Assembly (NCBI RefSeq): GCF_010725055.1 | Contig: NZ_BJKB01000003.1 | Location: forward strand, 1-64,000 | Source: Gelidibacter japonicus | Lineage (GTDB): Bacteria; Bacteroidota; Bacteroidia; Flavobacteriales; Flavobacteriaceae | Direction: 5' to 3' | Length of the DNA stretch: 64,000 nt | Part shown: one piece after another, positions 6,502-22,322 of the stretch | How positions within the stretch are numbered: the first letter of the stretch is position 1 | Layout: every line of letters starts with the position of its first letter | Program-made: the position numbers and the translations under genes | The notes under the pieces: model-generated | What the model was told of the DNA's origin: nothing | Databases searched by the model: none | Seen by the model: the letters and a program-made list of their open reading frames with translations, nothing else

Positions 6502-6677
6502 CGCCGCTTTTCGGTGAACCGACAGGTTTTTTGTTGATGGATAGAGAACATAATCCATAAATTTGGTAACCCAGGGTTTTGCTGTATAGGACAAAGATTT
6601 TCGTTAAAGGTTGGTCTTTTGAGCAGTTTATGTAAATCTCAAGGGATGTTTTTCGTGATAAGAACATTAAACGTGCA
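6502..6677. other. Intergenic region before susC, no gene seen
   Basis: Follows the pseudogene remnant. No recognisable coding frame was found. It may hold further, unrecognisable remains of the decayed gene and upstream control sites for susC. Confidence 0.4.
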
Positions 6678-6685
6678 TAAGTTTG
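6678..6685 (+). promoter_or_regulatory. Possible -7 box for the susC operon
   Basis: TAAGTTTG fits the Bacteroidota -7 consensus TAnnTTTG and lies 65 bases before the susC start. No well-spaced TTTG or TTG -33 element was found, so this is tentative. Confidence 0.3.
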
Positions 6686-6750
6686 CGAAAAACATGCGTG
6701 TTTTGATTTATTTTACTATTTTTATTAAAAATTAACTAAATCTTAACTGT

Positions 6751-9700
6751 ATGAAAAATTATTGTTATCAATTAATTGCCATGTTATTTTTGTTGGTTGC
6801 GCAGAGTTCGTTTGCTCAAACGGCATCAGTATCAGGTATAGTCACGGATAAGGCCACCGGCATCCCGTTAATAGGTGTGAATGTGGTTGTTGAAGGCACC
6901 TCAAACGGCGGTGTCACGGATTTTGATGGGAAATATACCATTACTAGTGCCAATCCACTACAAGGTAAAACTCTCGTTTTTAGTTTTGTTGGTTACAAGA
7001 CGGTTTCGTTTAGTATCCAGAGCAACAATCAAGAGCTAAATGTTGGAATGGAAGAAGATGCTACAAGTTTAGACGAAGTGGTTGTAACGGCTTTAGGTAT
7101 TAAACGTGAATCAAAAGCCCTGGGATATTCTTTGACCCAAGTTGATGGTGAGGAGATTTCGCAAGTAAAGACAACAAGTGCGGTTAATTCATTGCAAGGA
7201 CGGGTTGCTGGTGTCAACGTATCTACGACTAGTGCCGGAGCTGCAGGTTCAAGTAGAATCGTGATTAGAGGGGCTAGTTCCTTAACAGGAAATAATCAGC
7301 CTCTTTATGTGGTGGATGGGATTCCTGTGATTAACAATACCAAAAGCTCTGTTGTTGGACCAACCAATGACGGTACTGGCGATGGTGGAGATGATATTTC
7401 GTCAATCAATCCAGATGATATTGAATCTATTTCGGTGTTAAAAGGTAGTTCTGCGGCGGCATTGTATGGTTCATTGGCTTCCAATGGTGTCATCATGATT
7501 ACCACAAAATCCGGTAAGGGCCAGCAGGATCTTGGAATTGAGTACTCTAGCTCGTATACTTTTGACAGAGTCAATACCTCTCTTCAAGACATTCAGACCA
7601 TTTATGGACAGGGTGATAACGGATTGAAACCTGGTTACGAATTTGATGTCAATAATAATCCTGTGGAAATTGCAAATATGGAAAATGCTATTGATGACTC
7701 CTTTGTCAGTACGTTGCAATCGTGGGGTGCTTTGATGGACGGTTCAATGGTTTATAATTGGGACGGCGTCAAAAGACCCTATTCCTATAAGGGTAATAAT
7801 CTAGATAAGTTTTATCAAACTGGAACAACTGCCGTCAATACCTTGGCATTGTCAAAAGGTGGAGATGGTTATAATTATCGTTTTTCTATGTCCAATTTGG
7901 ATAACAGCGATATTTTTCCAAATTCTACTTTAAATAGAAAGTCGTTATCGTTGAATGCTTCTGCCAAGATCAATCCTAAATTGACTTCCACCATTAACGC
8001 GAAATATGTTATTGAGAAAGTACATAACCGTATAAACATAGGGGATACACCTGGAAATGCGAACACGGTGGCTAATGTGCTTCCTAGTTCGTTAGATATA
8101 TACGATTTAAAACCAGGGTCAAATGAGCAGGGTACAGAGCTTCTGTTTCAGCCAAGCCAATTCATTTCCAATCCGTATTGGGCGGTCAATAATTTTAATA
8201 ATGACGATAAAAAGAATAGGCTAACCGCATCCACTGTTTTGCGATATGACATTACCGAGTGGTTATATGCTACGGGTAGAGCAGGTATAGACACCTATGA
8301 TTTTGCCAGAAGAGCAGTAACACCTTACGGAACAGCATACCGTCCAGGTGGTGAGATGAGTCAGTCAAAAGCGACATATACCTCATTTGATGCCGATTTC
8401 ATGTTGGGAATTGAGAAGAGTATCACGGATAGAATATCTACAAACTCCATCATTGGTGCCAATACACGATCTTCTACTTATGAACAGTTGAGTGCCCTTG
8501 GAAGAGGATTTATTGTGATTGGTTTAGAGGATATCAATAACACTACCTTGCCAGAGCCTAAGAATGATTATTTCAAAACCAAGACCAATTCTATTTATGG
8601 TTCTTTTGAAGTGGATTACAATAAATTCTTTTATTTAACTTTTACGGGTAGAAATGATTGGTTCTCAACACTTTCTTATCCTGGTAAAGACACTCCAAAT
8701 AATGATTTCTACTGGTCTTTGAGTGGTAGTTTGCTACTTAGCGAGGCTTTTGATCTACCTTCAGCATTTAATTATCTTAAGCTAAGAGGAAGTTATGCGC
8801 AAGTAGCTGGTGGTGCCCAAAATGCCTATGCCTTAAATCTGGATTACGCCGTTACAGGATCATTCCAGGGGCAGTCCTTTGGTCAGCTGAACGGGAATTC
8901 CATTCCCAATCCAAATTTAGTGCCGTTTCAAAAGGATGAAACAGAGTTTGGTTTGGAAGGCAGGTTTTTCAATAACCGTTTGAATTTGGATGTGGCCTAT
9001 TATCAAAATGAAACTACCAATGATATTGTAAGGGCAGCAGCCTCTCAATCTTCTGGTTTTACATCATCAATCTTGAACATTGGTGCCCTACAGAACAAAG
9101 GTATTGAGTTGCTGATCGGTGGTTCACCTATTCGTACGGATGATTTTTCATGGAATACGTCCTTCAATCTAGGGTATAACGATAGTAAAATACTCAGTAC
9201 GGATGAAGAAGATACCCCAATTAACGTTGATGGTAGCCAAACACGTTCCAGAACCGCAATCATCTCACATATAGTGGGAGAGCACTACGGAGTTATCTAT
9301 GGTTCTTCTTATAAAAGAGACGAATCTGGTAACATCATGTATGATATTACGGGTAGCATACCAAAACCTATTCAAGGAGAGAACAAAATATTGGGACAAG
9401 GGGTAGCACCGTATACCTTAGGATTCTCAAATTCTTTTAGATATAAAAATGTGACCTTAGGATTTTTGATCGATGCTAAATATGGCGGAAGTGTGCATTC
9501 TGGTACCAATAGAGAACTGTTGTTAAGGGGCTTGCATAAAAAGACATTGGAAGGCCGTGAAAATGGACTGGTAGTTTCAGGAATTGATAATGCAACAGGC
9601 GACCCCTTCACCATGACGGTGGCCCCTGAAAACTTAAGAACCTATTATGGGGTAATGTTGGAAGAAAGTAGAGGGATCTCTGAAGAGGTTGTTTATAGTA

Positions 9701-9942
9701 CGGATTTTATCAAATTCAGAGAGTTGAACCTCTCTTACAGTCTTCCTAGAAAGGTTTTGAAAGATCTTTTTATTAATGATTTAAGACTTTCGTTAATTGC
9801 CAGAAACCTATTTTTCATTTCGAAAGATATTGATAACGTAGACCCAGAGGCAGCACTGAACAACTTGAATTCTCAGGGTATTGAAAGATTCGGTATTCCA
9901 TCAACCAGGAGCTATGGATTTTCTGTAAATGTTAAATTTTAA
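6751..9942 (+). CDS. SusC/RagA-family TonB-dependent outer-membrane transporter (locus 1)
   Basis: A 1063-residue outer-membrane import channel. A signal peptide (1-22, ending SSFAQ) is followed by a carboxypeptidase-regulatory-like domain (about 26-110, with GVNVVVEGTSNGG and VTDFDGKYTI), then a TonB plug whose start carries DEVVVTALGIKRE, a typical SusC motif, and VVDGIPV; the remainder is a beta-barrel ending in an aromatic-rich strand (SVNVKF). With the SusD lipoprotein 12 bases downstream it forms a surface complex that takes up oligomers using TonB energy. Genes behind it (DUF1343, MurQ, NagZ-type GH3) suggest the cargo is a MurNAc- or GlcNAc-containing fragment such as disaccharide or muropeptide; this is inference from context. 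Confidence 0.95.
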   Translation: MKNYCYQLIAMLFLLVAQSSFAQTASVSGIVTDKATGIPLIGVNVVVEGTSNGGVTDFDGKYTITSANPLQGKTLVFSFVGYKTVSFSIQSNNQELNVGMEEDATSLDEVVVTALGIKRESKALGYSLTQVDGEEISQVKTTSAVNSLQGRVAGVNVSTTSAGAAGSSRIVIRGASSLTGNNQPLYVVDGIPVINNTKSSVVGPTNDGTGDGGDDISSINPDDIESISVLKGSSAAALYGSLASNGVIMITTKSGKGQQDLGIEYSSSYTFDRVNTSLQDIQTIYGQGDNGLKPGYEFDVNNNPVEIANMENAIDDSFVSTLQSWGALMDGSMVYNWDGVKRPYSYKGNNLDKFYQTGTTAVNTLALSKGGDGYNYRFSMSNLDNSDIFPNSTLNRKSLSLNASAKINPKLTSTINAKYVIEKVHNRINIGDTPGNANTVANVLPSSLDIYDLKPGSNEQGTELLFQPSQFISNPYWAVNNFNNDDKKNRLTASTVLRYDITEWLYATGRAGIDTYDFARRAVTPYGTAYRPGGEMSQSKATYTSFDADFMLGIEKSITDRISTNSIIGANTRSSTYEQLSALGRGFIVIGLEDINNTTLPEPKNDYFKTKTNSIYGSFEVDYNKFFYLTFTGRNDWFSTLSYPGKDTPNNDFYWSLSGSLLLSEAFDLPSAFNYLKLRGSYAQVAGGAQNAYALNLDYAVTGSFQGQSFGQLNGNSIPNPNLVPFQKDETEFGLEGRFFNNRLNLDVAYYQNETTNDIVRAAASQSSGFTSSILNIGALQNKGIELLIGGSPIRTDDFSWNTSFNLGYNDSKILSTDEEDTPINVDGSQTRSRTAIISHIVGEHYGVIYGSSYKRDESGNIMYDITGSIPKPIQGENKILGQGVAPYTLGFSNSFRYKNVTLGFLIDAKYGGSVHSGTNRELLLRGLHKKTLEGRENGLVVSGIDNATGDPFTMTVAPENLRTYYGVMLEESRGISEEVVYSTDFIKFRELNLSYSLPRKVLKDLFINDLRLSLIARNLFFISKDIDNVDPEAALNNLNSQGIERFGIPSTRSYGFSVNVKF

Positions 9943-9954
9943 AAAAAACTGAAA

Positions 9955-11442
9955 ATGAAAAAAATACTTATTTTACTAGCAATAGTCGTCATGTTTGGAT
10001 CGTGCGATGAAGGTTTTGAGGAGCTCAATGTCAACCCCACAAAACCAACACAACTAGATCCGTCAACAAAGTTGACATTCATTCAATTGTACACGGGTGG
10101 GAGTAGTTATGTGGCAACTTTATTTTACAACGTGATCCATTTTATGCAGAATATCCAGCATCTTAACAACACTTCTTATGTTTCATTCCTATACAAAGAA
10201 GGTAATACTCATCAGCTGTTTGAAGAACAGTTCTCAAATACTGTAAAAAACGTTGTGGACCTAGAGACGCAATTGGCTAACAGTACGAGCCCTACCGCAC
10301 CGGTAGATTTGGCCATTGCCAAAGTGCAAAGGGTACTTATCTTTAGTAGGCTTACAGATGCCTATGGAGATATTCCTTATAGTGAAGCAGGAAAAGGCTT
10401 TATAGAAGGCATCCGGTTTCCAAAATACGACAGACAAAGCGAAATCTATAAAGATATGTTGGAGACCTTGGAGAGCTCTGCAGCAATATTAAGTCCTGGC
10501 ACTGTTAGCTCTTATGGCTCAGCCGATTTATTATTTGCCGGCGATACGGATAAATGGAGAAAGTTTGCCAACTCACTGATGTTGCGTTTGGCCATGAGAA
10601 TGGTGAAAGTTGATAATGATGGAGCGAAGGCTTGGGCAACCAAAGCGATTGCAGGCGGGGTAATGGAAAGTAATGATGATATTGCCTTTACTCAATACGA
10701 AAACTCTGCCAATGATGGTGGTCCTAATGTCAACCCACTTACAAAAAGCTTTACTTCAAGGTCGGCTACACAAGTTAAAATATCTAAGACGCTTATGGAT
10801 TATATGAAAGATCGGAATGATCCACGGGTTTCAGTGTTATTCTCCACAGTGGATGGCGATACAGACTTTGCGCTTCAATCGGGTCAAGACATTAATGTCG
10901 CCACTCGTGGGAATGCAAATTCTAAACCTAATATTAACATTTTTGGTGGCTCAGGTATCATTATCTATGATGCGCCACTCTTTTTCCAAACCTACGCTGA
11001 AGTTGAATTTATGCTTGCAGAAGCGGCAGAACGCTGGGGATTGGCCGGTGGCAATGTAGAGGCTCATTATAACGCAGGGGTCACTGCGGCCATGCAATAC
11101 CTTTCTCTGTACGGGCACGGTGTTGAGATTACAACAAGCCAGATCAATGATTATTTGGCAGCCAATCCTTTCGTGCCGGCCGATGCATTGAAGATGATTA
11201 ATGAGCAATATTGGGTCGCCACTTTTGGCAACGGGCTAGAGACATTTTCAAATTGGAAAAGATCAGGCTATCCTGAGTTGGTACCTGCAAATGTTGCAGC
11301 CTTACTTACAGATGGGCAAATTCCAAGAAGATTGCCTTATCCTGGTTCTGAAAAGTTGAATAACCCAGAAAAGCTTGCGGAAGCAATTCAACAACAAGGT
11401 GGCGATGGCCTTTTGACAAGAATGTGGTGGGATAAAAATTAA
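9955..11442 (+). CDS. SusD/RagB-family nutrient-binding lipoprotein (locus 1)
   Basis: A 495-residue surface lipoprotein. The N-terminus MKKILILLAIVVMFGSCDE has a lipobox with lipidated Cys17, followed by the FEELNVNPT segment that opens many SusD-like proteins. The body carries TPR-like helical segments, including SRLTDAYGDIPYSEA (about 123-137) and QTYAEVEFMLAEAAER, a hallmark of the family. SusD covers the SusC channel and binds the glycan. It lies 12 bases after susC. A strong terminator hairpin follows its stop codon, so the pair can be made in excess over the downstream enzymes, as is common for SusCD pairs. Confidence 0.93.
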   Translation: MKKILILLAIVVMFGSCDEGFEELNVNPTKPTQLDPSTKLTFIQLYTGGSSYVATLFYNVIHFMQNIQHLNNTSYVSFLYKEGNTHQLFEEQFSNTVKNVVDLETQLANSTSPTAPVDLAIAKVQRVLIFSRLTDAYGDIPYSEAGKGFIEGIRFPKYDRQSEIYKDMLETLESSAAILSPGTVSSYGSADLLFAGDTDKWRKFANSLMLRLAMRMVKVDNDGAKAWATKAIAGGVMESNDDIAFTQYENSANDGGPNVNPLTKSFTSRSATQVKISKTLMDYMKDRNDPRVSVLFSTVDGDTDFALQSGQDINVATRGNANSKPNINIFGGSGIIIYDAPLFFQTYAEVEFMLAEAAERWGLAGGNVEAHYNAGVTAAMQYLSLYGHGVEITTSQINDYLAANPFVPADALKMINEQYWVATFGNGLETFSNWKRSGYPELVPANVAALLTDGQIPRRLPYPGSEKLNNPEKLAEAIQQQGGDGLLTRMWWDKN

Positions 11443-11467
11443 TATCAATTTAGTTAGTTTGATGACT

Positions 11468-11519
11468 GAGGTGAGGGAATTAAAATTTCACGACATTAAT
11501 TGCTCTCACCTCTTTTTTT
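11468..11519 (+). terminator. Terminator or attenuator after susD, ending just before the next start codon
   Basis: GAGGTGAG (11468-11475) pairs with CTCACCTC (11505-11512), and inside it AATTAA (11478-11483) pairs with TTAATT (11496-11501). Seven T residues follow (11513-11519). The next gene's ATG is at 11523, so transcripts that stop here never include that gene. Partial read-through would set the ratio of SusCD to the enzymes. Confidence 0.8.
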
Positions 11520-11522
11520 ATA

Positions 11523-12740
11523 ATGCTCAGTTTAAAGAATAATCCATATATTTTGAAAAAAGTGAGTCTAGGGCTTGATGTTTTGGTGGCGGATGGCCAC
11601 CTTCAAAAAACATTTCGGGGGAATGTCGCCTTATTGGCCCACAACGCCTCTGTAGATTCCAGTCTCGTTCATGCTGCAGTAAGGTTGAAGTCAATTTTTG
11701 GTACGCGCTTTATCAAATTATTTGGTCCTCAACACGGATTTACGACAGATGCCCAGGATAATATGATTGAAACAGATCATTATACACACTCTTATTTTAA
11801 CATTCCCGTATATTCACTGTATTCTGAAGTTAGAGTGCCAACAGATGAGATGCTTGAAGGTGTTGACCACCTATTTGTCGATCTACAAGATATAGGCTGT
11901 AGAATGTACACCTACATCTATACACTCACTTTACTTCTCGAAAAATGCAGCAATAGCGGGATTGAAATTATCGTTTTGGATAGACCAAATCCGTTAAATG
12001 GTGTGGATCTGGAAGGAAATATATTAGATCTGCAATTTGAATCGTTTATAGGCCGACATCCAATTCCCGTGCGTCATGGTATGACCATTGGTGAAGTGGC
12101 GCTGATGCATCAAACCTATTGGGCCAAGGAGAAAGCCAATTTGAAAGTCATAAAAATGCAACATTGGAATCGTCATATGTATTTTGATGACACCGGATTG
12201 CATTGGCTTTTACCGTCCCCTAACTTGGGACGAACAGAAAGCTCCTTAACGTTTCCGGCCATCGTTCTATTTGAAGGCACTAATTTAAGTGAAGGGAGAG
12301 GGACCACCCAAGCATTGGAAATTATGGGTCATCCCAAAATTGAACCTTTTTCATTTTTTAAAGGTTATTTGGAAGCCAAAATAAAGCAATCAGAGTTAGA
12401 GGGATTTATACTGAGGCCTATAACTTTCATTCCTACATTTCAAAAGCAAATGGATCAGGTGTGTGGTGGACTACAACTTCATATAACAGACCGGACTAAA
12501 TATAAACCTTGGCGTATTGGCCAATTTCTGATAAGGGAAACCTATCATTATTTGGGAGATGACTTTGAGTGGCTTCAGCCACCCTACGAGTATAATTACA
12601 CGCAGGAACCTATTGATATTATTAACGGAACAGACAAATTAAGACATTGGATCACTACAAACGGTTCTATGGAAGCATTGAATGATTTTGAAGATTTAAA
12701 AAATTATAAGTTGCAGCTTGAAGACATTAAGATCTATTGA
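11523..12740 (+). CDS. DUF1343 / NamZ-family protein without signal peptide
   Basis: A 405-residue member of DUF1343 (GH171), the family of exo-beta-N-acetylmuramidase NamZ, which removes MurNAc from the non-reducing end of peptidoglycan fragments. Conserved blocks are visible: GPQHGF (about 77-82), VDLQDIGCRMYTYIYT, VLDRPNPLNG, PSPNLG and EGTNLSEGRGT. There is no signal peptide or lipobox, so it is predicted to be cytoplasmic, unlike its paralogue at 18452. In that paralogue the first block is SPEHGF; here the glutamate is glutamine, though a QDNMIE block follows. The annotated ATG lies three bases after a terminator T run and has no room for a ribosome site, so a later GTG (codon 14) or TTG could be the real start; the conserved domain begins near residue 17. 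Followed by a transporter after 102 bases. Confidence 0.82.
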   Translation: MLSLKNNPYILKKVSLGLDVLVADGHLQKTFRGNVALLAHNASVDSSLVHAAVRLKSIFGTRFIKLFGPQHGFTTDAQDNMIETDHYTHSYFNIPVYSLYSEVRVPTDEMLEGVDHLFVDLQDIGCRMYTYIYTLTLLLEKCSNSGIEIIVLDRPNPLNGVDLEGNILDLQFESFIGRHPIPVRHGMTIGEVALMHQTYWAKEKANLKVIKMQHWNRHMYFDDTGLHWLLPSPNLGRTESSLTFPAIVLFEGTNLSEGRGTTQALEIMGHPKIEPFSFFKGYLEAKIKQSELEGFILRPITFIPTFQKQMDQVCGGLQLHITDRTKYKPWRIGQFLIRETYHYLGDDFEWLQPPYEYNYTQEPIDIINGTDKLRHWITTNGSMEALNDFEDLKNYKLQLEDIKIY

Positions 12741-12842
12741 AGTATTTTTAACCATTATACTTGGAGGGACTTAACGACGGAGTTATGATCTGAAAATTTA
12801 AAAATCAAATAAACCAATTTAAAATAAAAACAGGATACACCA

Positions 12843-14312
12843 ATGAGCGCAACAATAATTCTAATAATAATAGCCTTATATTTTGGACTTTTGATGTTGA
12901 TATCACACATCGTTTCCAAGAACACCAGTGAAGAATCCTATTATACTGGCGATAGAAAATCGCCATGGCAGATCGTAGCGTTTGGGATGATTGGTGCCGT
13001 TTTGTCTGGGGTTACTTTTGTGTCTATTCCTGGGATGGTAGGCAATAGCTATTTTTATTATTTACAGTTTGTTTTTGGTAATGTTGTTGGTTATGTTTTT
13101 ATAACTTATGTCTTGGTTCCCATTTATTACGATTTGAAATTGGTATCCATATATACCTATTTAGAAACGCGCTTTGGTGTTAAGACCTATAAGACGGGCT
13201 CCATGTTTTTCTTGATTTCGCAATCATTTGGAGCGGCTTTACGGTTGATGCTCGCCGCGAAGATTTTGCAATATGCTGTTTTTGATGCCTTTAATATTCC
13301 ATTTTTTGTTACGGTCATCCTTATATTGGCACTTATCTGGTTGTACACTAACAAATCAGGTATAAAAACCATCGTTTGGACAGACACTTTGCAAACCTTT
13401 TTCTTGTTACTGGCGGTCATCGTATCCATTTATATTGTCAAAACCTCTTTGGACTTAAGTGTAATGGACACCGTTGCTGCAGTAACCAACCACGAGTACT
13501 TTAAAGTGTTCGATTGGGATTTCCATTCGGGAAACAACTTCTACAAACAGTTTATTTCAGGGGTATTGATAGCCGTGGCCATGGTGGGTCTTGATCAGAA
13601 TATGATGCAAAAAACCTTGACCTGTAAATCTAAAAAGGAAGCCCAGAAAAACATCCTTACTTTTAGTATTTTTCTGGCCATCACCCAGTTTTTGTTTTTG
13701 GGCTTGGGGGTCATGCTCTATTTATATGCCGAGCAATTTGGGATCCAATTGGAAATGGAAAACGGAAGTTTAATCAATACCGATAATTTATTCCCAATGC
13801 TTTCGTTGAACCATTTCGGCATTATTGCCGGGGTTAGTTTTATACTGGGAATAACGGCCGCTTCTTTTTCTAGCGCCGACTCTGCTTTGACTGCATTGAC
13901 AACGTCATTTACGCATGATTTTTTGAATATCAAAACGAAATCGTCCAAGAAAAAACTTCAGCTAAAAAATCGCACTTTGTTTGGCTTCTCAGCATTTATT
14001 TTTTTAATCATTATGCTTTTTTCAGAAAGTAAAGGCGATGTTATTTCAACCATTTTTAAAGTGGCAGGTTACACTTATGGCCCTTTGCTAGGATTGTATT
14101 TATTGGGCATTTTTACCAAAGTTAAAATTTATGATAGCGCTGTGCCCTATATCTGTATTGCTATGCCGTTGGTGACTTACTTTTTGAACTACTTTTTTAT
14201 TGAATGGTATAACTTTGATTTTGGGTTCATGAATATTTTCGTCAATGCCTCGCTAACTATAATATGCTTGTTACTGGTAAAGAATCCCCATAAAACCAAA
14301 AGCCTAACCTAA
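12843..14312 (+). CDS. Sodium:solute symporter (SSS family), probable amino-sugar importer
   Basis: A 489-residue inner-membrane protein with about 13 hydrophobic spans and the SSS-family pattern: an N-terminal span followed by SEESYYTGDRKSPWQIVAFG, GAVLSGVTFVSIPGMVG (sodium-site region of the first inverted repeat), IVWTDTLQTFF, and the later FSSADSALTALTTSF segment where sodium-coordinating serines lie in SSS proteins. It is placed between a DUF1343 gene and murQ. In Tannerella forsythia a MurNAc transporter (MurT) is encoded next to murQ, so import of MurNAc or a related sugar from the periplasm is the likely role here (inference from context). It could also take sialic acid or other sugars. 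Domains appear complete. Confidence 0.85.
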   Translation: MSATIILIIIALYFGLLMLISHIVSKNTSEESYYTGDRKSPWQIVAFGMIGAVLSGVTFVSIPGMVGNSYFYYLQFVFGNVVGYVFITYVLVPIYYDLKLVSIYTYLETRFGVKTYKTGSMFFLISQSFGAALRLMLAAKILQYAVFDAFNIPFFVTVILILALIWLYTNKSGIKTIVWTDTLQTFFLLLAVIVSIYIVKTSLDLSVMDTVAAVTNHEYFKVFDWDFHSGNNFYKQFISGVLIAVAMVGLDQNMMQKTLTCKSKKEAQKNILTFSIFLAITQFLFLGLGVMLYLYAEQFGIQLEMENGSLINTDNLFPMLSLNHFGIIAGVSFILGITAASFSSADSALTALTTSFTHDFLNIKTKSSKKKLQLKNRTLFGFSAFIFLIIMLFSESKGDVISTIFKVAGYTYGPLLGLYLLGIFTKVKIYDSAVPYICIAMPLVTYFLNYFFIEWYNFDFGFMNIFVNASLTIICLLLVKNPHKTKSLT

Positions 14313-14335
14313 TAGCTAATTAAATCTTAAATCCT

Positions 14336-15157
14336 ATGAAACTTAAATTGACCACCGAACAAGCGTCGGATTATAATGATTTGGAAAAGATGGACACTCT
14401 CCAGCTGCTATCAAATATGAATAAAGAGGACAAAACGGTTCCTCAAGCCATTGAAAAAGCCATTCCCCAAATTCAAAAACTAGTGGATGCCATATATTCT
14501 AAAATGAAAGATGGTGGACGTTTATTTTATATAGGCGCAGGAACCAGTGGTCGTTTGGGAGTGTTGGATGCTTCTGAATGTCCACCAACTTACGGCGTCC
14601 CTGATAATATGGTCATTGGCATCATTGCAGGAGGGGATAGCGCACTTAGAAAAGCGGTCGAAAATGCGGAAGACAATACCGAATTGGCTTGGCAAGATTT
14701 AAATAAATATGCCATCACAAAAAACGACGTGCTGATAGGAATTGCAGCCTCTGGAACCACACCCTATGTGATTGGAGGTATTAAGGAAGCTAAGCAACAC
14801 GGCATTGTTACGGGCTGTATTACCTGTAATAAAAATTCGCCTCTGTCCTTGGAAGTGGATCATCCTATCGAATTGGTCGTTGGTCCAGAGTTTGTCACCG
14901 GAAGTACCAGAATGAAAGCGGGAACCGCTCAAAAAATAGCTTTAAATATGATTTCTACTACGGTAATGATCAAATTGGGTAGGGTTCGAGGCAATAAAAT
15001 GATAGACATGCAGCTGTCAAATAAGAAATTGGTCAATAGAGCAGTTCAAATGATCATGAACGAACTTCAAGTGGATGAAGGCATGGCTGGTAAATTGTTG
15101 GCCGAGCATAAAAATGTCAGAAAGGCGATTGATAGCTATAATTCTCATAAAAAATGA
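14336..15157 (+). CDS. murQ: N-acetylmuramic acid 6-phosphate etherase MurQ
   Basis: A cytoplasmic lyase that splits the D-lactyl ether of MurNAc-6-phosphate to give GlcNAc-6-phosphate, the committed step of MurNAc catabolism. The SIS fold is clear: YIGAGTSGRLGVLDASECPPTYG (with Glu81, matching the catalytic glutamate in the DASECPP block), then AVENAEDN (Glu112, the second conserved glutamate), AASGTTPYV and GSTRMKAGTAQK. At 273 residues it is somewhat shorter at the C-terminus than the E. coli enzyme of about 298. The last four bases overlap the start of the GH3 gene (ATGA), indicating translational coupling. A MurNAc kinase is needed to supply its substrate and is not in the window. Confidence 0.95.
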   Translation: MKLKLTTEQASDYNDLEKMDTLQLLSNMNKEDKTVPQAIEKAIPQIQKLVDAIYSKMKDGGRLFYIGAGTSGRLGVLDASECPPTYGVPDNMVIGIIAGGDSALRKAVENAEDNTELAWQDLNKYAITKNDVLIGIAASGTTPYVIGGIKEAKQHGIVTGCITCNKNSPLSLEVDHPIELVVGPEFVTGSTRMKAGTAQKIALNMISTTVMIKLGRVRGNKMIDMQLSNKKLVNRAVQMIMNELQVDEGMAGKLLAEHKNVRKAIDSYNSHKK

Positions 15158-16845
15158 AAAAAACTTTACCGATACTGAGTCTTGTGATTCTCATGATGGC
15201 GTCCTGCGCAAAGGTGCCCAGCAAACGTCTGATAGAAATTGACGAGCAGGCACATTGGGTCGATAGTATCTATAGCAACATGTCCTTAAAGGAAAAAGTG
15301 GGACAGTTATTTATGGTCAGTGCGTATTCCAACAGAAATGATTCACATACCGATTCTATTCAAAAACTGATCAACGACTATCACTTAGGCGGTCTTATCT
15401 TCTTTCAAGGTGGACCAATCCGACAGGCAACACAGACCAATCACTACCAATCGATTTCTAAAATTCCTTTATTTATTGGAATTGATGGTGAATGGGGGCT
15501 AAACATGCGCTTGGATAGTACGTCAAGGTATCCTTATAATATGACCTTAGGTGCGATAACTGATCATAAAATCATTAAAAAGATCGGAGAACAAATTGGA
15601 AAAGATTGCAAACGAATGGGCATTCATATCAATTTTGCGCCCGTGGTTGATATCAATACCAATTCAAAAAATCCTGTCATTGGTGTGCGCTCCTTCGGTG
15701 AAGATAAAGTTAATGTCACAGAAAAAGCGTGGGCATTTACCGATGGACTACAAAGCGTTGGAGTTTTGGCCTGTGCGAAGCATTTTCCTGGACATGGGGA
15801 TACTGCTTCCGATTCGCATAAAACCCTGCCAACAGTGTCGTTTTCAAAAGAAAGAATTGACGCGATAGAACTCTATCCATATAAAGAGTTATTCAATAAA
15901 GGCGTTGCAGGCGTTATGGTCGCCCATTTGAACGTCCCCAATTTAGAAAGTCAAGAAGGATTGCCTTCTTCATTGTCCTACCAAATAGTTACGGAATTGC
16001 TTAAAGAACAATTGGGCTACGAGGGACTTATTTTTACGGATGCCTTAAACATGAAAGGTGTGGCTGATTATGGGCAGCCCGGAGATATCGATCTGGCGGC
16101 CTTTAAAGCTGGTAACGATGTGCTTCTCTTTACGGAAGACGCACCAAAGGCCATCTTGAAAATCATGGCAGCTTATGAACAAAATGACATTTCTGAAGCT
16201 CGTTTGGCACATTCTGTTAAGAAAATCCTTGCCGCTAAATTTGATGCAGGACTAAATCGCTATGAACCTATTGAAACGGAGGGTCTTATTAATGATTTAA
16301 ATCAAGATGTGAACGCTCAGTTGTACGATGAAGCCATTAAAAACGCCATTACCTTAGTTAAAAATGAGGGTCAATTAGTGCCCATGAAAAACAATACTCC
16401 AGAAAAGATTGGGTTTTTGAAGTTGGGTGACGACTCCGCAGAACTATTCTTAGAGTCTTTAAAGTTAAAAGGTGACATTACCGATATGTCTAATCTATCT
16501 GCTAAAAAATTATCGGAGGAACTGAGTAAATACGATAAAATTATCATAGGCTACCACCGAAAAAACAGCAGGATCACGAGTGCCATTTCAAAGAAAGACA
16601 AAAAAACCATAGAAAACATTTCAAAAAAACATAAAACCATCCTATCCGTCTTTGCGAGTCAGTACAGTTTAAAAGAAACAGATTTAGAAGCCGTGGAAAC
16701 TGTGCTCATTTCGTACGAAAATTCAGAAATAGCGAATAAAGCTACTGCTGAAATTATTTTCGGAGAATCGGGGGTGAATGGTACATTGCCTGCGTCAATT
16801 TCAAAAGAATATCCTGTACGATTAGGGATTAACATTGCACAGTAA
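15154..16845 (+). CDS. nagZ: GH3 beta-N-acetylglucosaminidase, NagZ type, lipoprotein
   Basis: A 563-residue exo-glucosaminidase expected to remove non-reducing GlcNAc from peptidoglycan fragments. The leader MKKTLPILSLVILMMASCAK has a lipobox (Cys18), so it is membrane-anchored and outside the cytoplasm, unlike the cytosolic E. coli NagZ but like Bacillus subtilis NagZ, which is exported. The NagZ-specific loop KHFPGHGDTASDSH (209-222) includes the Asp-His dyad (Asp220, His222) that acts as acid/base in this subfamily, and the nucleophile is Asp296 in IFTDALNMKG. A C-terminal domain follows (about 385-560), shorter than in long GH3 enzymes. The B. subtilis murQ-murR-murP-amiE-nagZ-ybbC(namZ) operon has the same three partners. 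It overlaps murQ by four bases. Confidence 0.9.
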   Translation: MKKTLPILSLVILMMASCAKVPSKRLIEIDEQAHWVDSIYSNMSLKEKVGQLFMVSAYSNRNDSHTDSIQKLINDYHLGGLIFFQGGPIRQATQTNHYQSISKIPLFIGIDGEWGLNMRLDSTSRYPYNMTLGAITDHKIIKKIGEQIGKDCKRMGIHINFAPVVDINTNSKNPVIGVRSFGEDKVNVTEKAWAFTDGLQSVGVLACAKHFPGHGDTASDSHKTLPTVSFSKERIDAIELYPYKELFNKGVAGVMVAHLNVPNLESQEGLPSSLSYQIVTELLKEQLGYEGLIFTDALNMKGVADYGQPGDIDLAAFKAGNDVLLFTEDAPKAILKIMAAYEQNDISEARLAHSVKKILAAKFDAGLNRYEPIETEGLINDLNQDVNAQLYDEAIKNAITLVKNEGQLVPMKNNTPEKIGFLKLGDDSAELFLESLKLKGDITDMSNLSAKKLSEELSKYDKIIIGYHRKNSRITSAISKKDKKTIENISKKHKTILSVFASQYSLKETDLEAVETVLISYENSEIANKATAEIIFGESGVNGTLPASISKEYPVRLGINIAQ

Positions 16846-16877
16846 ATGGCTAATAATTCAACCTAAAACAGATAAAA

Positions 16878-18347
16878 ATGAAAAGAATTCTACACAACAA
16901 GCTCATCGTTTTATTGACCTGTATGACGATTCAAACCATGTTTTCTCAGGAGGTTATTATGGAAGGTCCACACCAAATGCAAAAAGAAGAGTTTGGTAAA
17001 GTTACGACAGATGCTACCCGACGGGATGCCAGTAAAAAAGCTGAAAAAATAATTGGTTTAAATGCTTTAAGAGCGCCCGCATTGAATAAAAAGGTATTTG
17101 GTTTCTTGCCTTACTGGGAGCAAAGCTCTGGGGCCCATAACAATATTCGCTATGATTTGCTGACTCATTTGGCCTGTTTTGATTTTTTGGTGCAATTGGA
17201 TGCCTCTATTGCTACACCTGCGGGATGGCCATGGACGGCTGAAATTAATGCCGCTCATGCACAAGGAGTAAAGGTAATTATGACTGTAGTTAATTTTGGT
17301 GGCGCCGATGGTGCAGATGCCGTGGTTTGGGAATTGATCACCAATCCGACCAAGAAAACCCTATTTTTCAATAATGTCAAAAGCTTAATTGAAACCTACA
17401 ATTTGGATGGAGTCAATATTGATTTTGAAGGTATGGCCACCAATCATCGGGGTGCAGAACTGAATGCATTTTTGTCTGACCTAACCACATTTATTCATGT
17501 TGAACTCCCAGGGAAAGAGGTGTCTTTTGATGGACCGGCTGTCAATTGGGGCGGATGGGATATAGAGGGTTTGGTGGATAGTGTGGATTACGTGGTCATT
17601 ATGGCTTATGATTATACGTCTGCAAACAGTGCGAATTCTGGTCCAGTTGCTCCTTTGATACATCACACTTCATGGAAACGATTTGTTAAACGCACTATAG
17701 AAACAGGAACCTATGCCGTACCTACTGCAAACAATCCTGAAAAATTGATTATGGCCGTTCCTTATTACGGGCAACATTGGAAAACAGAGACCAGCGTCTC
17801 CGAATCGGCAACCATATCGCATGTGTCATCCACACGTTATAGAAATACGGTAACCGAGGCAGATAGCCACGGTGGTTTTATATGGAATTCAGATTTCGAA
17901 TATCCATGGTACAGATGGAACGACGGGACCAATTGGAACCAAGTTTGGATAGATAATGAACTGAGCATCTCAAAAAAGTTCGATTTGGCCATAGCCAACA
18001 ATCTTGGAGGCGTAGGGATGTGGGCCTTAAATTATGACGGTGGTCGCCCAGAACTTTGGGAATTGATCAATACTAAGTTTGGTGCAACGGCCTCTGTTGG
18101 TGATGCAACTTTAAATCAGATTAAAATCCATCCCAATCCAACATCAGGTTATATAAACATAACACATGCTAACGCTGTCAAATTCACTAAAATGGAATTG
18201 TTCAATGTTATGGGTGCTTCTGTTTTAAAAGTGACCTCTCATTTTGAAAATATAAACATGACGTCATTGGAAAACGGTTTGTATTTTTTAGAAGTTGAAG
18301 ATGAACAAGGTGGCCAAGCCACATTTAAAATCTTAAAATCCAATTAA
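16878..18347 (+). CDS. GH18-family glycosidase with type IX secretion sorting domain
   Basis: A 489-residue exported enzyme. The signal peptide (1-23, ending TMFSQ) is followed by a GH18 barrel (about 70-400): VFGFLPYWEQ opens it, DGVNIDFEG (177-185) holds the catalytic Glu184 with Asp182, and VVIMAYDY and MWALNYDGG are later family motifs. The C-terminal 75 residues (IKIHPNPTSGYINI to FKILKSN) are a type A sorting domain of the type IX secretion system, so the protein should reach the cell surface or medium. GH18 includes chitinases, endo-beta-N-acetylglucosaminidases and peptidoglycan-active enzymes; the setting favours a GlcNAc-containing substrate such as peptidoglycan. It is the only enzyme of this locus with a sorting domain, so it may make the first endo-acting cut. 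Confidence 0.88.
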   Translation: MKRILHNKLIVLLTCMTIQTMFSQEVIMEGPHQMQKEEFGKVTTDATRRDASKKAEKIIGLNALRAPALNKKVFGFLPYWEQSSGAHNNIRYDLLTHLACFDFLVQLDASIATPAGWPWTAEINAAHAQGVKVIMTVVNFGGADGADAVVWELITNPTKKTLFFNNVKSLIETYNLDGVNIDFEGMATNHRGAELNAFLSDLTTFIHVELPGKEVSFDGPAVNWGGWDIEGLVDSVDYVVIMAYDYTSANSANSGPVAPLIHHTSWKRFVKRTIETGTYAVPTANNPEKLIMAVPYYGQHWKTETSVSESATISHVSSTRYRNTVTEADSHGGFIWNSDFEYPWYRWNDGTNWNQVWIDNELSISKKFDLAIANNLGGVGMWALNYDGGRPELWELINTKFGATASVGDATLNQIKIHPNPTSGYINITHANAVKFTKMELFNVMGASVLKVTSHFENINMTSLENGLYFLEVEDEQGGQATFKILKSN

Positions 18348-18451
18348 TTCATTCTGAGCCATTTGCAGCACTTGGTAAAACATAGTAAATTTTAAAAAAT
18401 AAGACTGCAATATCATTTTATCTTTTAATCACAAATTAAAACTCGAATATT

Positions 18452-19669
18452 ATGAAATATCTTTTTTTATGTTTTATTAGCCTTTTAGCTTGTAATGAAA
18501 CGACTAAAAAAAATCAAGTTAAAGACGACAGTATGGTCGCTGCCGAGGTTGAAAAATCGGCAATTGTAACAGGTGCAAATCAGACCGATGTTTATCTTAA
18601 GCTTTTGGAGGGTAAGAATGTGGGTGTAGTAGCGAATCAAACCAGCGTTATTTTTAAGGATGAAAGCGAACAAAACCACACCCATCTTGTCGATTCCTTA
18701 TTGGCATTGGGCATCAAGGTGACCAAAGTCTATTCACCTGAGCATGGCTTCCGTGGCACAGCAGATGCTGGCGAATATATAGAGGACGGTATTGATGAGA
18801 AAACAGGTTTACCTATATTTTCCCTGTATGGCAAAAACAGAAAGCCGCCGAAGGAATTTTTAAAGGATATTGATGTGATGCTGTTTGATGTTCAGGATGT
18901 TGGCGTTCGTTTTTACACCTATATCTCCACTCTTCATTATGTGATGGAAACTGCAGCAGAGCTCAATATTCCAGTTATTATTTTAGATCGTCCAAATCCG
19001 AATGGCCATTATATTGATGGACCTATTCTGGAAAGCGAGGTTAAAAGTTTTGTGGGTATGCACCCAGTGCCTATTGTATATGGGATGACCATTGGTGAAT
19101 ACGGAAAGATGATCAATGGCGAAAAATGGCTAGAGAATGGTATTCAGTGTGAACTTACAGTAATACCATTAAGGAATTACACTTATGATTCTGAATACGA
19201 CCTGCCTATAAAGCCTTCACCAAACCTTCCCAATGCCACATCCATCAATTTGTACCCGAGTGTTTGCTTTTTTGAAGGCACCACATTAAGCTGTGGGCGT
19301 GGTACGGAAATGCAGTTTCAGGTTTTTGGAGCCCCGTTTTTACCAAAAGACAAATTCGATTTCAGCTTTACGCCAGAACCCAATTTTGGCGCAAAAACGC
19401 CAAAACACCAAGGGGAAGAGTGTTATGGAAGAGATTTAAGAAATGTTGAACGGCTCAATGAAGTCAAATTGGATTGGCTGGTTGAGACATACAATTCTAC
19501 ACCAGATCAAAAAACATTCTTTAATGATTTCTTTCCAAAACTGGCAGGGACGAAAATGCTACAGAAACAAATTGAAGAAGGAGTGTCTATTGAGGATATT
19601 AAAGAAAGCTGGGCATCAGGATTGGAGTCCTTTGCTAAAACTAGAGCAAAATATTTGATGTATAACTAA
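18452..19669 (+). CDS. namZ: DUF1343 exo-beta-N-acetylmuramidase (NamZ type), lipoprotein
   Basis: A 405-residue lipoprotein (MKYLFLCFISLLACNE, lipidated Cys14) of the DUF1343/GH171 family. All conserved blocks are present: SPEHGFRGTADAGE, DVQDVGVRFYTYISTLHYVM, ILDRPNPNGHYIDGP, PIVYGMTIGE, PSPNLPNATS and FEGTTLSCGRGTE. NamZ enzymes release MurNAc from non-reducing ends of peptidoglycan glycan, the complement of NagZ, and with the GH3 enzyme upstream could take short glycans down to single sugars in the periplasm. It is a paralogue of the gene at 11523 but has a lipobox and the canonical PEHG block. The spacing of 104 bases from the GH18 gene allows its own promoter, though none was recognised. 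Confidence 0.88.
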   Translation: MKYLFLCFISLLACNETTKKNQVKDDSMVAAEVEKSAIVTGANQTDVYLKLLEGKNVGVVANQTSVIFKDESEQNHTHLVDSLLALGIKVTKVYSPEHGFRGTADAGEYIEDGIDEKTGLPIFSLYGKNRKPPKEFLKDIDVMLFDVQDVGVRFYTYISTLHYVMETAAELNIPVIILDRPNPNGHYIDGPILESEVKSFVGMHPVPIVYGMTIGEYGKMINGEKWLENGIQCELTVIPLRNYTYDSEYDLPIKPSPNLPNATSINLYPSVCFFEGTTLSCGRGTEMQFQVFGAPFLPKDKFDFSFTPEPNFGAKTPKHQGEECYGRDLRNVERLNEVKLDWLVETYNSTPDQKTFFNDFFPKLAGTKMLQKQIEEGVSIEDIKESWASGLESFAKTRAKYLMYN

Positions 19670-19697
19670 CCGAATAAAAAGTGAAATCTTTTTAGGG

Positions 19698-19726
19698 AAT
19701 GCTATTGATTAACAATAGAAAGCATT
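19698..19726 (+). other. Stem-loop between the NamZ-type and GH9 genes
   Basis: CTATTG (19702-19707) pairs with CAATAG (19713-19718) over a 5-base loop, and AATG outside it can pair with CATT with a small bulge. It has no T run, so it may be an mRNA processing or stability element rather than a terminator. Confidence 0.35.
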
Positions 19727-19801
19727 GGCGTTTCGAGACGATTTATTATTCTATACCTTTAATCGCCAAGGCTTCTATTTTTTAAAATTATTTGTAGGAA
19801 A

Positions 19802-22321
19802 ATGAAAAAGATGTTATTTGTTATTAGTATTGGTTTTATTTTGTGTTCAGCAGTCGCCAGTCCGCCTATCACAAAGGATAAAGGGAGTTCGGTCATTCGG
19901 ATCAATCAGTTGGGATATACGCCAAATTCCATAAAAGTGGCCGTCTTTGGTGCCATTGAGCACGCACAGATTGATTCCTTTTCACTTCATGATGCAACTA
20001 CGGACAAAGAGGTTTTCAAATCGCGAACACCGGTTTCAAAAGGAGCTTATGGCCCGTTTAAATCGTCGTATCGATTAAATTTCAGTGAATTTCAAATCCC
20101 AGGCAAATTCTATCTTCTGGCAGGTGGTATAAAATCGCCCGTATTTAGAATAAATACTGATGTTTATGACCATACTGCCGATTTTCTATTGGAATATATG
20201 CGTCAGCAACGTTGCGGATATAATCCGTATCTAACTGCGACTTGTCATTTGGATGATGGATATATTTTGTACAATCCTGGGAAGGAAGGAGAGCGTATTG
20301 ATGTGACCGGCGGCTGGCATGACGCTTCCGATTATTTGCAGTACACGGCCACTTCAGCCAATGCTGTTTTTCAATTACTGTTTGCCTACCGCGACAACCC
20401 AGAAGCCTTTGACGATGCCTATGGAGCTGATGGGCTACCTGGGCCAAATGGGATTCCGGATATTATCGATGAAGCAAAATTTGGCATGGATTGGCTAAAA
20501 AAGATGAATCCGTCATCTACTGAGTTTTATAACCAAATTGCCGATGACCGTGATCATTCTGGTTACCGATTACCAAATAAAGATTCGGTTATCTACGATC
20601 CTAATCGGCGTGGTCGACCTGTGTACTTGGCGAGTGCAGAAAAACAAGGCGTTTTAAAATATAAGAACAGATCAACTGGAGTGGCCTCTACCGCAGGAAA
20701 ATATGCTTCTGCTTTTGCCATTGGTGCTACGGTTTTAAAGGAGTTTTATCCTGAATATACTGACGACCTGACCAAACGGGCGGAGGAGGCATATAAGTAT
20801 GGCAAATTACATCCAGGCGTAAGCCAGACCGCACCCGGACGCTCTCCTTATTTTTACGAAGAAGACAATTGGATTGATGATATGGAATTGGCAGCGAGTA
20901 GTCTTTATAAACTTACCGGTGATGAAAGCTATAAAAAAAGTGCGCTGAAGTATGCTTCTGAAGAAAAGGTGACGCCTTGGATTGGAAGGGATACCATATT
21001 GCATTACCAATATTATCCCTTCTTGAATTCAGGCCATCATGAATTGGCCTCAACTCTCGAATCCAATAAACGAAAAGAAGTAACGTCCTATTATGGCAAG
21101 GGATTACAGATGCTTCATGAACGTGGCAAAGACAATCCTTTTTATATAGGAATTCCTTTTGTTTGGTGCTCTAATAATTTTGTGACTGCTGCGGTTACAC
21201 AAAGCAGACTATATCATAAACTGACAGAAGATGCTACCTATCTTGAAATGGAAGCAGCACTAAGGGATTGGCTATTTGGCTGTAATATTTGGGGAACTTC
21301 CATGATTGTGGGGCTTCCCGCCCATGGAGATACGCCTACAGACCCTCATTCGTCGCTTTATCTTCTGGAAGGATACCAAACCAATGGTGGGTTGATTGAT
21401 GGACCGGTTTACGCTTCAATCGCGAACAGCTTAATAGGGGTCGAACTTCACGAGGAAGACGAATATGCCCAATTCCAATCAGACTTGGTGGTATATCAAG
21501 ATGATGTGGGGAGTTATTCTACAAACGAGCCAACCATGGATGGTACGGCTTCTTTGGTCTATTACCTATCATCATTAGAAAGTGAAAGCTTTAGGCATGG
21601 AAATAAAAAGAAACGACACACTTATGATTCGAGTGGTGCCATTGTTAGGGGGAACAGGTCCGAAAAGAAAATCAGTCTATTGTTTTCAGGTCATGAATAC
21701 GCCGATGGTGCTGCAGAAATATTAAGAGTTTTGGATAAACACGATATCAAAGCCTCTTTCTTCCTTACTGGGGATTTCTACAGGAACGGAAACTTTGCGA
21801 CATTTATCAAAAGTGCAAAGAAATCGGGTCACTATCTTGGTGCACATTCCGATAAGCATTTGCTTTATAACGATTGGACAAAAGAAAAGAAGCGCTTGGT
21901 TACCCAGGATGAATTCAAAAGCGATTTAAAAGCAAATTATTCAGAAATGGAAAAGTTTGGCGTCCAAAAGGAAGACGCACCCTACTTTTTGCCGCCTTTT
22001 GAATGGAACGATAACATCATCACCCAATGGGCAGATCAAATGAGTATTGCAATGATCAACTATAGTCCTGGCACAATATCGCATGCAGATTATACGACTC
22101 CAGAGATGGAGAACTATAGAACTACCGAAGACATTGTAAGCTCTATCCTTACTTTGGAGGAAACAGAAGGATTGAATGGATTTTTGCTGCTTTCCCATAT
22201 AGGTACACATCCTAATCGTACGGATAAGTTTTATGACAAACTTGACAGTCTCATAACTCTCTTAAAAGAACGAGGTTATGAATTTGATGCCTTGACCAAT
22301 AATTTGAATTTAAAGAATTAA
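19802..22321 (+). CDS. GH9 glycosidase fused to a CE4-type polysaccharide deacetylase domain
   Basis: An 839-residue exported protein (signal peptide 1-19, ending AVAS). Residues about 28-115 form the CelD_N immunoglobulin-like domain (IRINQLGYTPNSIKVAV). The GH9 domain (about 120-600) has GGWHDASDY, with the paired aspartates at 174 and 177 in the DxxD position of GH9, and NEPTMDG with Glu576 in the catalytic acid position. Residues about 620-835 are NodB-like: HSDKH (682-686) matches the metal-binding HxxxH motif, PPFEW the RxPF-like block and LLLSHIG the last histidine. The first NodB motif, normally TFDD, reads FSGHEYADG here. Some GH9 members, in Vibrio-type bacteria, are exo-glucosaminidases, so coupled de-N-acetylation and removal of GlcN is an attractive but unproven idea. 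Last gene of the operon. Confidence 0.85.
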   Translation: MKKMLFVISIGFILCSAVASPPITKDKGSSVIRINQLGYTPNSIKVAVFGAIEHAQIDSFSLHDATTDKEVFKSRTPVSKGAYGPFKSSYRLNFSEFQIPGKFYLLAGGIKSPVFRINTDVYDHTADFLLEYMRQQRCGYNPYLTATCHLDDGYILYNPGKEGERIDVTGGWHDASDYLQYTATSANAVFQLLFAYRDNPEAFDDAYGADGLPGPNGIPDIIDEAKFGMDWLKKMNPSSTEFYNQIADDRDHSGYRLPNKDSVIYDPNRRGRPVYLASAEKQGVLKYKNRSTGVASTAGKYASAFAIGATVLKEFYPEYTDDLTKRAEEAYKYGKLHPGVSQTAPGRSPYFYEEDNWIDDMELAASSLYKLTGDESYKKSALKYASEEKVTPWIGRDTILHYQYYPFLNSGHHELASTLESNKRKEVTSYYGKGLQMLHERGKDNPFYIGIPFVWCSNNFVTAAVTQSRLYHKLTEDATYLEMEAALRDWLFGCNIWGTSMIVGLPAHGDTPTDPHSSLYLLEGYQTNGGLIDGPVYASIANSLIGVELHEEDEYAQFQSDLVVYQDDVGSYSTNEPTMDGTASLVYYLSSLESESFRHGNKKKRHTYDSSGAIVRGNRSEKKISLLFSGHEYADGAAEILRVLDKHDIKASFFLTGDFYRNGNFATFIKSAKKSGHYLGAHSDKHLLYNDWTKEKKRLVTQDEFKSDLKANYSEMEKFGVQKEDAPYFLPPFEWNDNIITQWADQMSIAMINYSPGTISHADYTTPEMENYRTTEDIVSSILTLEETEGLNGFLLLSHIGTHPNRTDKFYDKLDSLITLLKERGYEFDALTNNLNLKN

Positions 22322-22322
22322 A

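Follow-up and report, generated by a model that had tools for sequence, protein, structure and literature searches.

A SusCD-type gene cluster predicted to serve in the utilization of murein sugars by Gelidibacter japonicus

Nine genes on the forward strand of Gelidibacter japonicus, at positions 6751-22321 of a 64,000-nucleotide (nt) stretch of contig NZ_BJKB01000003.1 (the window, at its full length), probably constitute a polysaccharide utilization locus (PUL) for sugars of murein (peptidoglycan) acquired from outside the cell. In order, they encode SusC, SusD, the NamZ-family protein NamZ-a, a sodium:solute symporter, MurQ, a NagZ-type GH3 lipoprotein, a GH18 glycosidase with a type IX secretion system (T9SS) tail, a second NamZ-family protein (the lipoprotein NamZ-b), and a GH9-CE4 fusion. 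MurQ converts N-acetylmuramic acid 6-phosphate (MurNAc-6-P) to N-acetylglucosamine 6-phosphate (GlcNAc-6-P) and D-lactate. Sequence comparisons support the view that this clade of SusD, a separate clade of MurQ, and a MurQ-linked symporter subfamily travel together. A first-pass annotation of the same DNA had proposed a locus for the use of MurNAc and GlcNAc from peptidoglycan, and this proposal is supported by the three associations as well as by accessory genes in related loci.

Murein from dead bacteria constitutes a large marine pool of carbon and nitrogen, and its uptake across the outer membrane of the Bacteroidota has hardly been described. The locus is compact, comes with a regulator and an operator-like site, and is present in named type strains; uptake of murein sugars by SusC and SusD (SusCD) is directly testable in it. 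It also singles out two proteins of interest, the GH9-CE4 fusion and the NamZ-a paralog.

Conservation of the locus

Named genomes were scanned with an alignment of six SusDs, and the best 80 of 201 relatives were retained. These comprise 32 loci with a SusD at least about 60% identical, 25 of which extend at least 5 kb downstream of SusD, and 48 comparison loci in which SusD identity is about 50% or lower, 45 of which extend as far. The loci should not be counted as independent, since Gelidibacter contributes five of the 32. A draw of 149 genomes of the family Flavobacteriaceae was also used; in what follows, L denotes an individual locus, G a genome of this draw (G000 being the window genome), and C a contig.

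The gene order that the first-pass annotation had suggested looking for in relatives was recovered. MurQ lies 1.5-5.3 kb from SusD in 22 of the 25 loci with sufficient flank (22 of 32 overall). Among the same 25 loci, the symporter is present in 22, GH3 and a DeoR-like regulator in 21 each, a NamZ-b-type protein in 18, NagX in 13, NamZ-a in 11, and GH18 in 10. Less frequent members are a D-2-hydroxyacid dehydrogenase (nine loci), DUF6259 (six), GHL10 (five), a NagB-like protein (three), AnmK and an epimerase (two each), and an AmpG-like permease, NagP, and SH3-NlpC/P60 (one each). In the loci with SusD at about 50% identity or less, MurQ and NamZ were found in none of 45 (none of 48 overall) within the flank covered, and the symporter in just one of the 48. 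The arrangement in the window is not one of chance: many other genera also have SusC, SusD, the symporter, and MurQ in company.

On a SusD tree built by a quick method, the MurQ label requires one change (SH-like approximate likelihood ratio test, SH-aLRT, 97), relative to a mean of 19.8 in shuffles. SusDs at least 78% identical occur in six of the 149 genomes, each within 7 kb of a window-type MurQ. Eleven further genomes have a SusD at 35-55% identity, and neither MurQ nor NamZ was found in the nine of these regions that were covered (all except those of G080 and G127). A contig of Gelidibacter salicanalis IC162 carries the same locus, and it is likewise found in Gelidibacter mesophilus DSM 14095 (L092) and Algibacter miyuki CECT 8300 (L100).

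MurQ by itself is found almost throughout the family (142 of the 149 genomes), and the window genome has two copies, the second on C24. In a quick-method tree of 54 MurQs from the retrieved loci, the window MurQ belongs to a clade of 22 rows (SH-aLRT 95) and the other genomic copy in a separate clade of 19 rows (SH-aLRT 97). The symporter is found within the retrieved stretch for 19 of the 22 rows, and the other three have symporters 2.4 kb off, past the stretch end; no symporter was seen in the 19-row clade, where most stretches reach just 1.5 kb to either side. Symporters at least 61% identical occur at 13 places in 12 of the 149 genomes, and 10 of these places are within 2.4 kb of MurQ, the remaining three being in G133 (C1), G080, and G030. 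Among the matches listed, paralogs at 42-50% identity lie beside MurQ in G134 only, and the 52% paralogs of G031 and G111 are 7-12 kb away from it. In Tannerella forsythia, the MurNAc transporter MurT belongs to the sodium symporter superfamily and is encoded in murTKQ (PMC5790795; gene layout in PMC5388701); work on it employed a strain of the Escherichia coli murP-mutant kind. The window symporter, which adjoins MurQ, is likely a transporter of MurNAc (or MurNAc-GlcNAc) like MurT, the likeness being drawn from family and MurQ neighborhood.

Organization of the locus

The run and its upstream region contain the following features:

4916..5665, minus strand: divergent DeoR-family regulator (DeoRC 7.2e-40; HTH_DeoR 7.5e-15)
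~5867..6608, plus strand: decayed nagX remnant, glucosamine N-acetyltransferase-like (tblastn and three-frame translation)
6669..6703, plus strand: operator-like near-palindrome before susC (core conserved across promoters)
6751..9942, plus strand: SusC/RagA TonB-dependent outer-membrane transporter (TIGR04056, 625.5 bits; cut-off 368)
9955..11442, plus strand: SusD-like_2 lipoprotein (PF12771, 4e-82), in a clade with other MurQ-linked SusDs
11523..12740, plus strand: NamZ-a, with PQHG in place of PEHG and no visible signal peptide (PF07075, NamZ_N, 7e-74)
12843..14312, plus strand: sodium:solute symporter (PF00474, SSF, 7.6e-22)
14336..15157, plus strand: MurQ, MurNAc-6-P etherase, locus-type paralog (TIGR00274, 341.9 bits; cut-off 302)
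15154..16845, plus strand: predicted NagZ-type GH3 beta-N-acetylglucosaminidase lipoprotein (PF00933, 4.3e-79)
16878..18347, plus strand: GH18 glycosidase with T9SS sorting tail (PF00704, 4.6e-33; PF18962, Por_Secre_tail, 1.3e-11)
18452..19669, plus strand: NamZ-b, NamZ-family lipoprotein, predicted exo-muramidase (PF07075, 1e-79)
19802..22321, plus strand: exported GH9-CE4-like fusion (PF00759, 5.1e-67; PF01522, polysaccharide deacetylase, 7.4e-11)

The order and strand of the nine genes had been read correctly in the first-pass annotation, and every gene was identified by Pfam and NCBIfam profile searches. As in a PUL, SusC adjoins SusD, and GH3, GH18, two NamZ, and GH9 genes lie on the same strand with gaps of at most 132 nt. 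The successive gaps, from SusC to GH9-CE4, are 12, 80, 102, 23, -4, 32, 104, and 132 nt, making a single transcript plausible. By eye and by a simple pattern, SusD, GH3, and NamZ-b have the look of lipoproteins, and GH18 and GH9-CE4 that of exported proteins. Rfam gave no match at gathering scores in 4800-23000, matches to sigma-70 promoters were at chance level, and terminator matches were rarer than in shuffled sequence.

The DeoR regulator likely senses a sugar phosphate and likely reads the site at 6669-6703. The core of this near-palindrome, GCA-N6-TGC-N8-TGC, occurs upstream of susC in 17 of the 22 MurQ-linked loci (the window counted) and in none of 42 promoters of SusCs at 44-60% identity. 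Its distance to the susC start codon is 51-56 nt in 15 of the 17, 66 nt in L096, and 32 nt in L104. In 200 shuffles, the core was found in a mean of 0.055 and a maximum of two of 22 promoters; the pattern was picked from the same sequences in which it was counted, these sequences are orthologs, and the shuffles therefore overstate their independence. The absence from the 42 controls, together with the near-constant distance to the start codon, is the better support for the site. Other matches in the genome, those on C4 and C5 included, all have three mismatches, and the genes surrounding the C5 match correspond to no locus query.

Between deoR and susC sits the nagX remnant, at the place where sister loci L044, L047, and L091 carry an intact nagX. 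Specifically, 6324-6608 matches the NagX of L044 (tblastn E 2e-6), and an N-terminal piece was recognized by eye in three-frame translation at ~5867-6011. The intact L044 protein itself scores 161.9 bits against the NCBIfam NagX model, below the cut-off of 480.

Predicted activities of the encoded proteins

The two proteins labeled DUF1343 in the first-pass annotation match NamZ_N and NamZ_C of Pfam, with both domains above cut-off in each; NamZ is presumably family GH171. NamZ-b has the PEHG motif and a lipobox pattern, matches PDB entry 4jja at 4.6e-107, and is predicted to be an exo-muramidase lipoprotein. NamZ-a retains many residues in common with NamZ-b, and a Gln replaces the Glu of PEHG in 13 of 13 rows, relative to Glu in 30 of 32 rows of the NamZ-b type. 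This Glu is, we take it, the proposed catalytic residue of Bacillus subtilis NamZ. No signal peptide was visible by eye in the 13 full N-termini of NamZ-a, the window protein among them (a fourteenth, in L111, is incomplete); judged from the orthologs, translation may begin at a TTG that lies a few codons past the listed ATG. NamZ-a may act in the cytosol on another form of the substrate, or it may be no hydrolase. The GH3 protein matches PDB entry 6k5j, a GH3 N-acetylglucosaminidase, at 2.1e-71, and YbbD at 9.3e-60. Elsewhere, three tandem NamZ-family genes, one without the PEHG motif, were seen on C4 of the window genome (L007, G000:C4:34000-53000, at 8135-12321), and a single 587-residue protein combines Amidase_2 and NamZ domains (L170:6180-7943).

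The best solved match of the GH18 protein is YdhD (2.6e-20), with chitinases, a cortical-lytic enzyme, and YaaH ranking below it. Its motif, DGVNIDFE, is present in 13 of 14 distinct rows and reads GVNMDFE in L045; this Asn variant is presumably the usual one in spore-cortex GH18 enzymes. Homologs at about 50% identity are also encoded in G119 and G146, on contigs or stretches devoid of locus genes.

The GH9-CE4 fusion is present in five of the 149 genomes (G000, G013, G080, G119, and G135); its neighbor is GHL10 in G080 and, in G135, a gene with weak likeness to NagX. G133 encodes GH9 and CE4 separately, in adjoining genes, and in G125 the matches to the two lie side by side; GH9 without CE4 lies between the symporter and the epimerase in G031 and G111. 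The best solved matches of the GH9 domain are J30 and other endoglucanases. Entry 6gdt (“endoglucanase-related protein”), which we take to be a Vibrio exo-glucosaminidase, matches the fusion at 7.7e-4 and the GH9 of G031 at 8.6e-10. The comparison with solved GH9 enzymes did not separate exo-glucosaminidase from endoglucanase.

Weighing of the evidence

Several findings weigh against a PUL for murein sugars. Three loci (L112, L113, and L114) are without MurQ despite sufficient flank, and seven more are short of flank. The MurQs of L098, L107, and L111 lie outside the 22-row clade though their SusD clade is the same; SusCD and MurQ have thus moved separately in some cases. SusD itself offers no clue to its ligand: the solved structure closest to it is an unspecified RagB/SusD protein (1e-68). 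Profile searches found no kinase, GlcNAc-6-P deacetylase, or glucosamine 6-phosphate deaminase within the nine-gene run, nor does the run contain an amidase or peptidase, and a MurK homolog was found in none of the 32 loci. The GH18 and GH9 families act mostly on chitin and cellulose. GH9-CE4 belongs to the locus in just three of the 25 loci (L091, L092, and L094), and in genomes other than those of Gelidibacter the fusion is remote from MurQ. The first-pass annotation had regarded the combination with GH18 and GH9-CE4 as unusual; as a member of the locus, GH9-CE4 is confined to Gelidibacter among the loci examined. Moreover, what we take to be the canonical CE4 motif 1, TFDDG, is absent from the fusion and the kin examined, the window protein reading FSGHEYADG at that position. 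CE4 motif 2 (H-S-x-x-H) is present as HSDKH in the window protein and also in kin; deacetylation is doubtful because motif 1 is not canonical. Finally, NamZ is common in Bacteroides, with GH171 in the core set according to the available text of PMC12131861, and NamZ alone is therefore no proof.

A locus for chitin or another GlcNAc-containing glycan, with SusCD, GH18, GH3, and GH9-CE4 serving for chitin or chitosan and MurQ and NamZ as passengers, appears improbable. Enzymes of GH18 and GH3 N-acetylglucosaminidases are typical of chitin use, and loci of the more distant SusDs do carry NagB-like (8 of 45), NagP-like (13 of 45), and GH20 (7 of 45) genes. However, MurQ, in its own clade, and NamZ of both types recur at the frequencies given above; the GH18 protein matches YdhD better than chitinase 8hw6 (2e-14); the chitin-binding SusD 8j0p is a distant match to the window SusD (8e-32, versus the best at 1e-68); and AnmK and enzymes for murein peptides are encoded in a few sister loci. 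Recovery of sugars shed from the cell's own wall, in which SusCD would just recapture leakage, is quite unlikely. In other bacteria, NagZ, NamZ, MurQ, and AnmK serve in recycling, and the near universality of MurQ in the family would agree with such a role; yet the separate MurQ on C24 belongs to a different clade, the locus is patchy (six of the 149 genomes, by SusD), and the T9SS-tailed GH18 and SusCD point outward.

It is highly unlikely that SusCD imports some other substrate (e.g., peptides) and is merely co-regulated with the MurNAc genes. The lack of ligand information for SusD, the varied genes that adjoin related SusDs at 35-55% identity, and the presence of the same SusD clade in L112 and L114 without MurQ or NamZ would allow it, whereas the MurQ-linked SusDs form one clade and MurQ clusters also contain unlike SusCD pairs (in G031, G111, and G100, and in G134).

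Proposed pathway

For murein sugars taken from outside the cell, the T9SS-secreted GH18 would cut glycan strands at the cell surface, and the fragments would be bound and imported by SusD and SusC. In the periplasm, the NagZ-type GH3 and NamZ-b, with activities predicted from their families, may remove GlcNAc and MurNAc alternately, with GH9-CE4 perhaps assisting at glucosamine or GlcNAc ends, the weakest step. The sodium symporter would bring MurNAc, or MurNAc-GlcNAc, into the cytoplasm, where NamZ-a may act. A kinase encoded elsewhere, either the MurK homolog on C6 or AnmK on C18, would make MurNAc-6-P, MurQ would cleave it to GlcNAc-6-P and D-lactate, and the D-lactate could be oxidized by a dehydrogenase that is encoded in some sister loci and on C6 in the window genome. 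DeoR probably represses susC through 6669-6703 until a sugar phosphate appears.

The remaining genes have candidates outside the window. The C6 kinase, encoded beside gapA, scores 28 bits against Pfam BadF, short of the cut-off of 31.5; among solved structures it matches 1zxo best (“conserved hypothetical protein”; 1e-47), followed by 8oqw (“ATPase”; 3e-44) and 8ow9 (“Putative novel MurNAc kinase”; 1e-43), the latter two taken to be structures of the T. forsythia study PMC10465942. AnmK is over cut-off on C18, and the dehydrogenase homolog on C6 is 63% identical. On C4 (L198, G000:C4:214000-233900), a second SusCD cluster at 666-11131 encodes an epimerase, a BioF-like protein, SusD-like_2, SusC, an S13 D-Ala-D-Ala carboxypeptidase, an M14 carboxypeptidase, and Amidase_2, and is perhaps the partner for murein-peptide uptake.

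Comparison with known systems

In B. subtilis, NagZ, NamZ, and MurQ of the murQ-murP-nagZ-namZ group act successively on murein strands, and uptake is by a phosphotransferase system (MurP) in a cell without an outer membrane. The window presumably shares NagZ, NamZ, and MurQ with this group. With T. forsythia, it has in common a transporter of the sodium symporter superfamily encoded with MurQ and a ybbC gene, there carried by murTKQ and the contiguous ampG-ybbC operon (PMC5790795, PMC5388701, PMC10465942, PMC7670621). The T. forsythia operon contains a MurNAc kinase, whereas the window run has none, the MurK-type homolog and AnmK being on C6 and C18; the window in turn adds NagZ, GH18, and GH9-CE4, as well as SusCD, which the available text of those sources does not name with murTKQ. 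The ybbC gene of T. forsythia presumably belongs to the NamZ family. As in classical PULs of Bacteroidetes, a SusC-SusD pair is followed by glycosidases (PMC6499787). According to the available text of that survey, the murein families GH23, 24, 25, and 73 are under-represented in PULs but present in several, and NamZ and MurQ, from which the murein signal of the window derives, are not named.

The closest precedent is the Urechidicola symbiont of Idas mussels, also of the Flavobacteriaceae, in which a SusCD-murein cluster was described in 2023 from genome, transcript, and sparse protein data (PMC10199937, ISME Commun). The cluster is reported to comprise deoR, a sodium co-transporter, murQ, nagB, ampG, bioF, an epimerase, ampD, dacA, nhaC, GH3, 18, 171, and 10, and two SusCD pairs; its figure legend assigns most of the genes to murein metabolism, and the available text leaves the source of the substrate open. 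SusCD, deoR, the sodium transporter, murQ, GH3, GH18, and GH171 are shared with the window. The second SusCD pair, ampG, nagB, bioF, the epimerase, ampD, dacA, and GH10 set the symbiont cluster apart from the window run, and for the symbiont GH9 is not listed in the available text. In contrast to that cluster, the window run is sugar-only and without enzymes for murein peptides, and genes of the peptide type accompany another SusCD on C4 (L198). The idea of a SusCD-murein system is therefore not new in print. The first-pass annotation had called such uptake poorly described, which is borne out insofar as PMC10199937 was the only matching cluster among the matches listed (subscription journals being mostly outside the coverage), but a similar cluster had already been published there. 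In the available text of further papers with matches to GH171 or to SusCD and muropeptides, no such locus is described. Within the literature covered, the new elements are the conserved core, the operator, the cytosolic NamZ paralog with Gln in the PEHG motif, and GH9 in other MurQ clusters.

Accessory genes and other SusCD lineages

Related loci contain further genes that could serve in murein-sugar metabolism. AnmK is over the NCBIfam cut-off in L058 and L096. The FAD/Fe-S D-2-hydroxyacid dehydrogenase does not reach the cut-off of the model that it matches best; it would be suited to the D-lactate that MurQ releases. NagX- and NagP-like proteins and the AmpG-like permease of L111 are below cut-off, and the NagB-like protein is over it. 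The epimerase does not reach the cut-off of L-Ala-D/L-Glu models; among solved structures it is closest to 3iji (titled muconate cycloisomerase; 6e-58) and then to a chain titled dipeptide epimerase. All four epimerases at least 63% identical in the 149 genomes (in G111, G031, G007, and G100) lie within 17 kb of MurQ. For example, L096, from a Lutibacter metagenome-assembled genome, has a DeoR gene followed by SusC, SusD, NamZ-a, the symporter, MurQ, AnmK, the dehydrogenase, the epimerase, and GH3. In L107 (Gillisia sp. CAL575), of the same SusD clade, MurQ is accompanied by GH20, a second SusCD, GHL10, a 53% symporter, the epimerase, and SH3-NlpC/P60. As an additional observation, a DUF6259 lipoprotein of ~760 residues lies between the symporter and MurQ in L045 (6930-9224), L046, and L048, and beside NamZ-a in L050.

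Other kinds of SusCD are found in MurQ clusters as well. In G031, G111, and G100, a SusC of 31-32% identity sits between MurQ and genes for GHL10, the epimerase, and a YkfC-like protein; in G007, SusCD is absent from the stretch retrieved. In G134, a SusD_RagB-type pair is followed by GHL10, NamZ, MurQ, the symporter, GH3, AnmK, and NagX. Because the SusCD pairs in MurQ clusters are dissimilar, SusCD probably joined murein-sugar clusters more than once. GH9 is known as a cellulase family. It is possible, though rather doubtful, that murein feeding is recurrent in Flavobacteriaceae through at least three SusCD lineages recruited to MurQ/NamZ clusters, that GH9 would act there as a glycosidase for murein sugars (perhaps as an exo-glucosaminidase on strands that have lost their N-acetyl groups, the amino group being dealt with by the CE4-like domain and NagX), and that the cytosolic Gln-type NamZ-a would have a novel activity on MurNAc-GlcNAc, or on the phosphate of this sugar, after import.

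Two minor observations concern the wider SusD family. In L087 (3766-5258; G146), a SusD gene in two pieces adjoins a NagB-like gene, the symporter-MurQ pair of G146 being elsewhere. Finally, a BadF-type kinase gene and a NagB-like gene lie near a SusD of 45-49% identity in L083 (1293-4089; G021), which suggests a wider tie of the SusD family to amino sugars.

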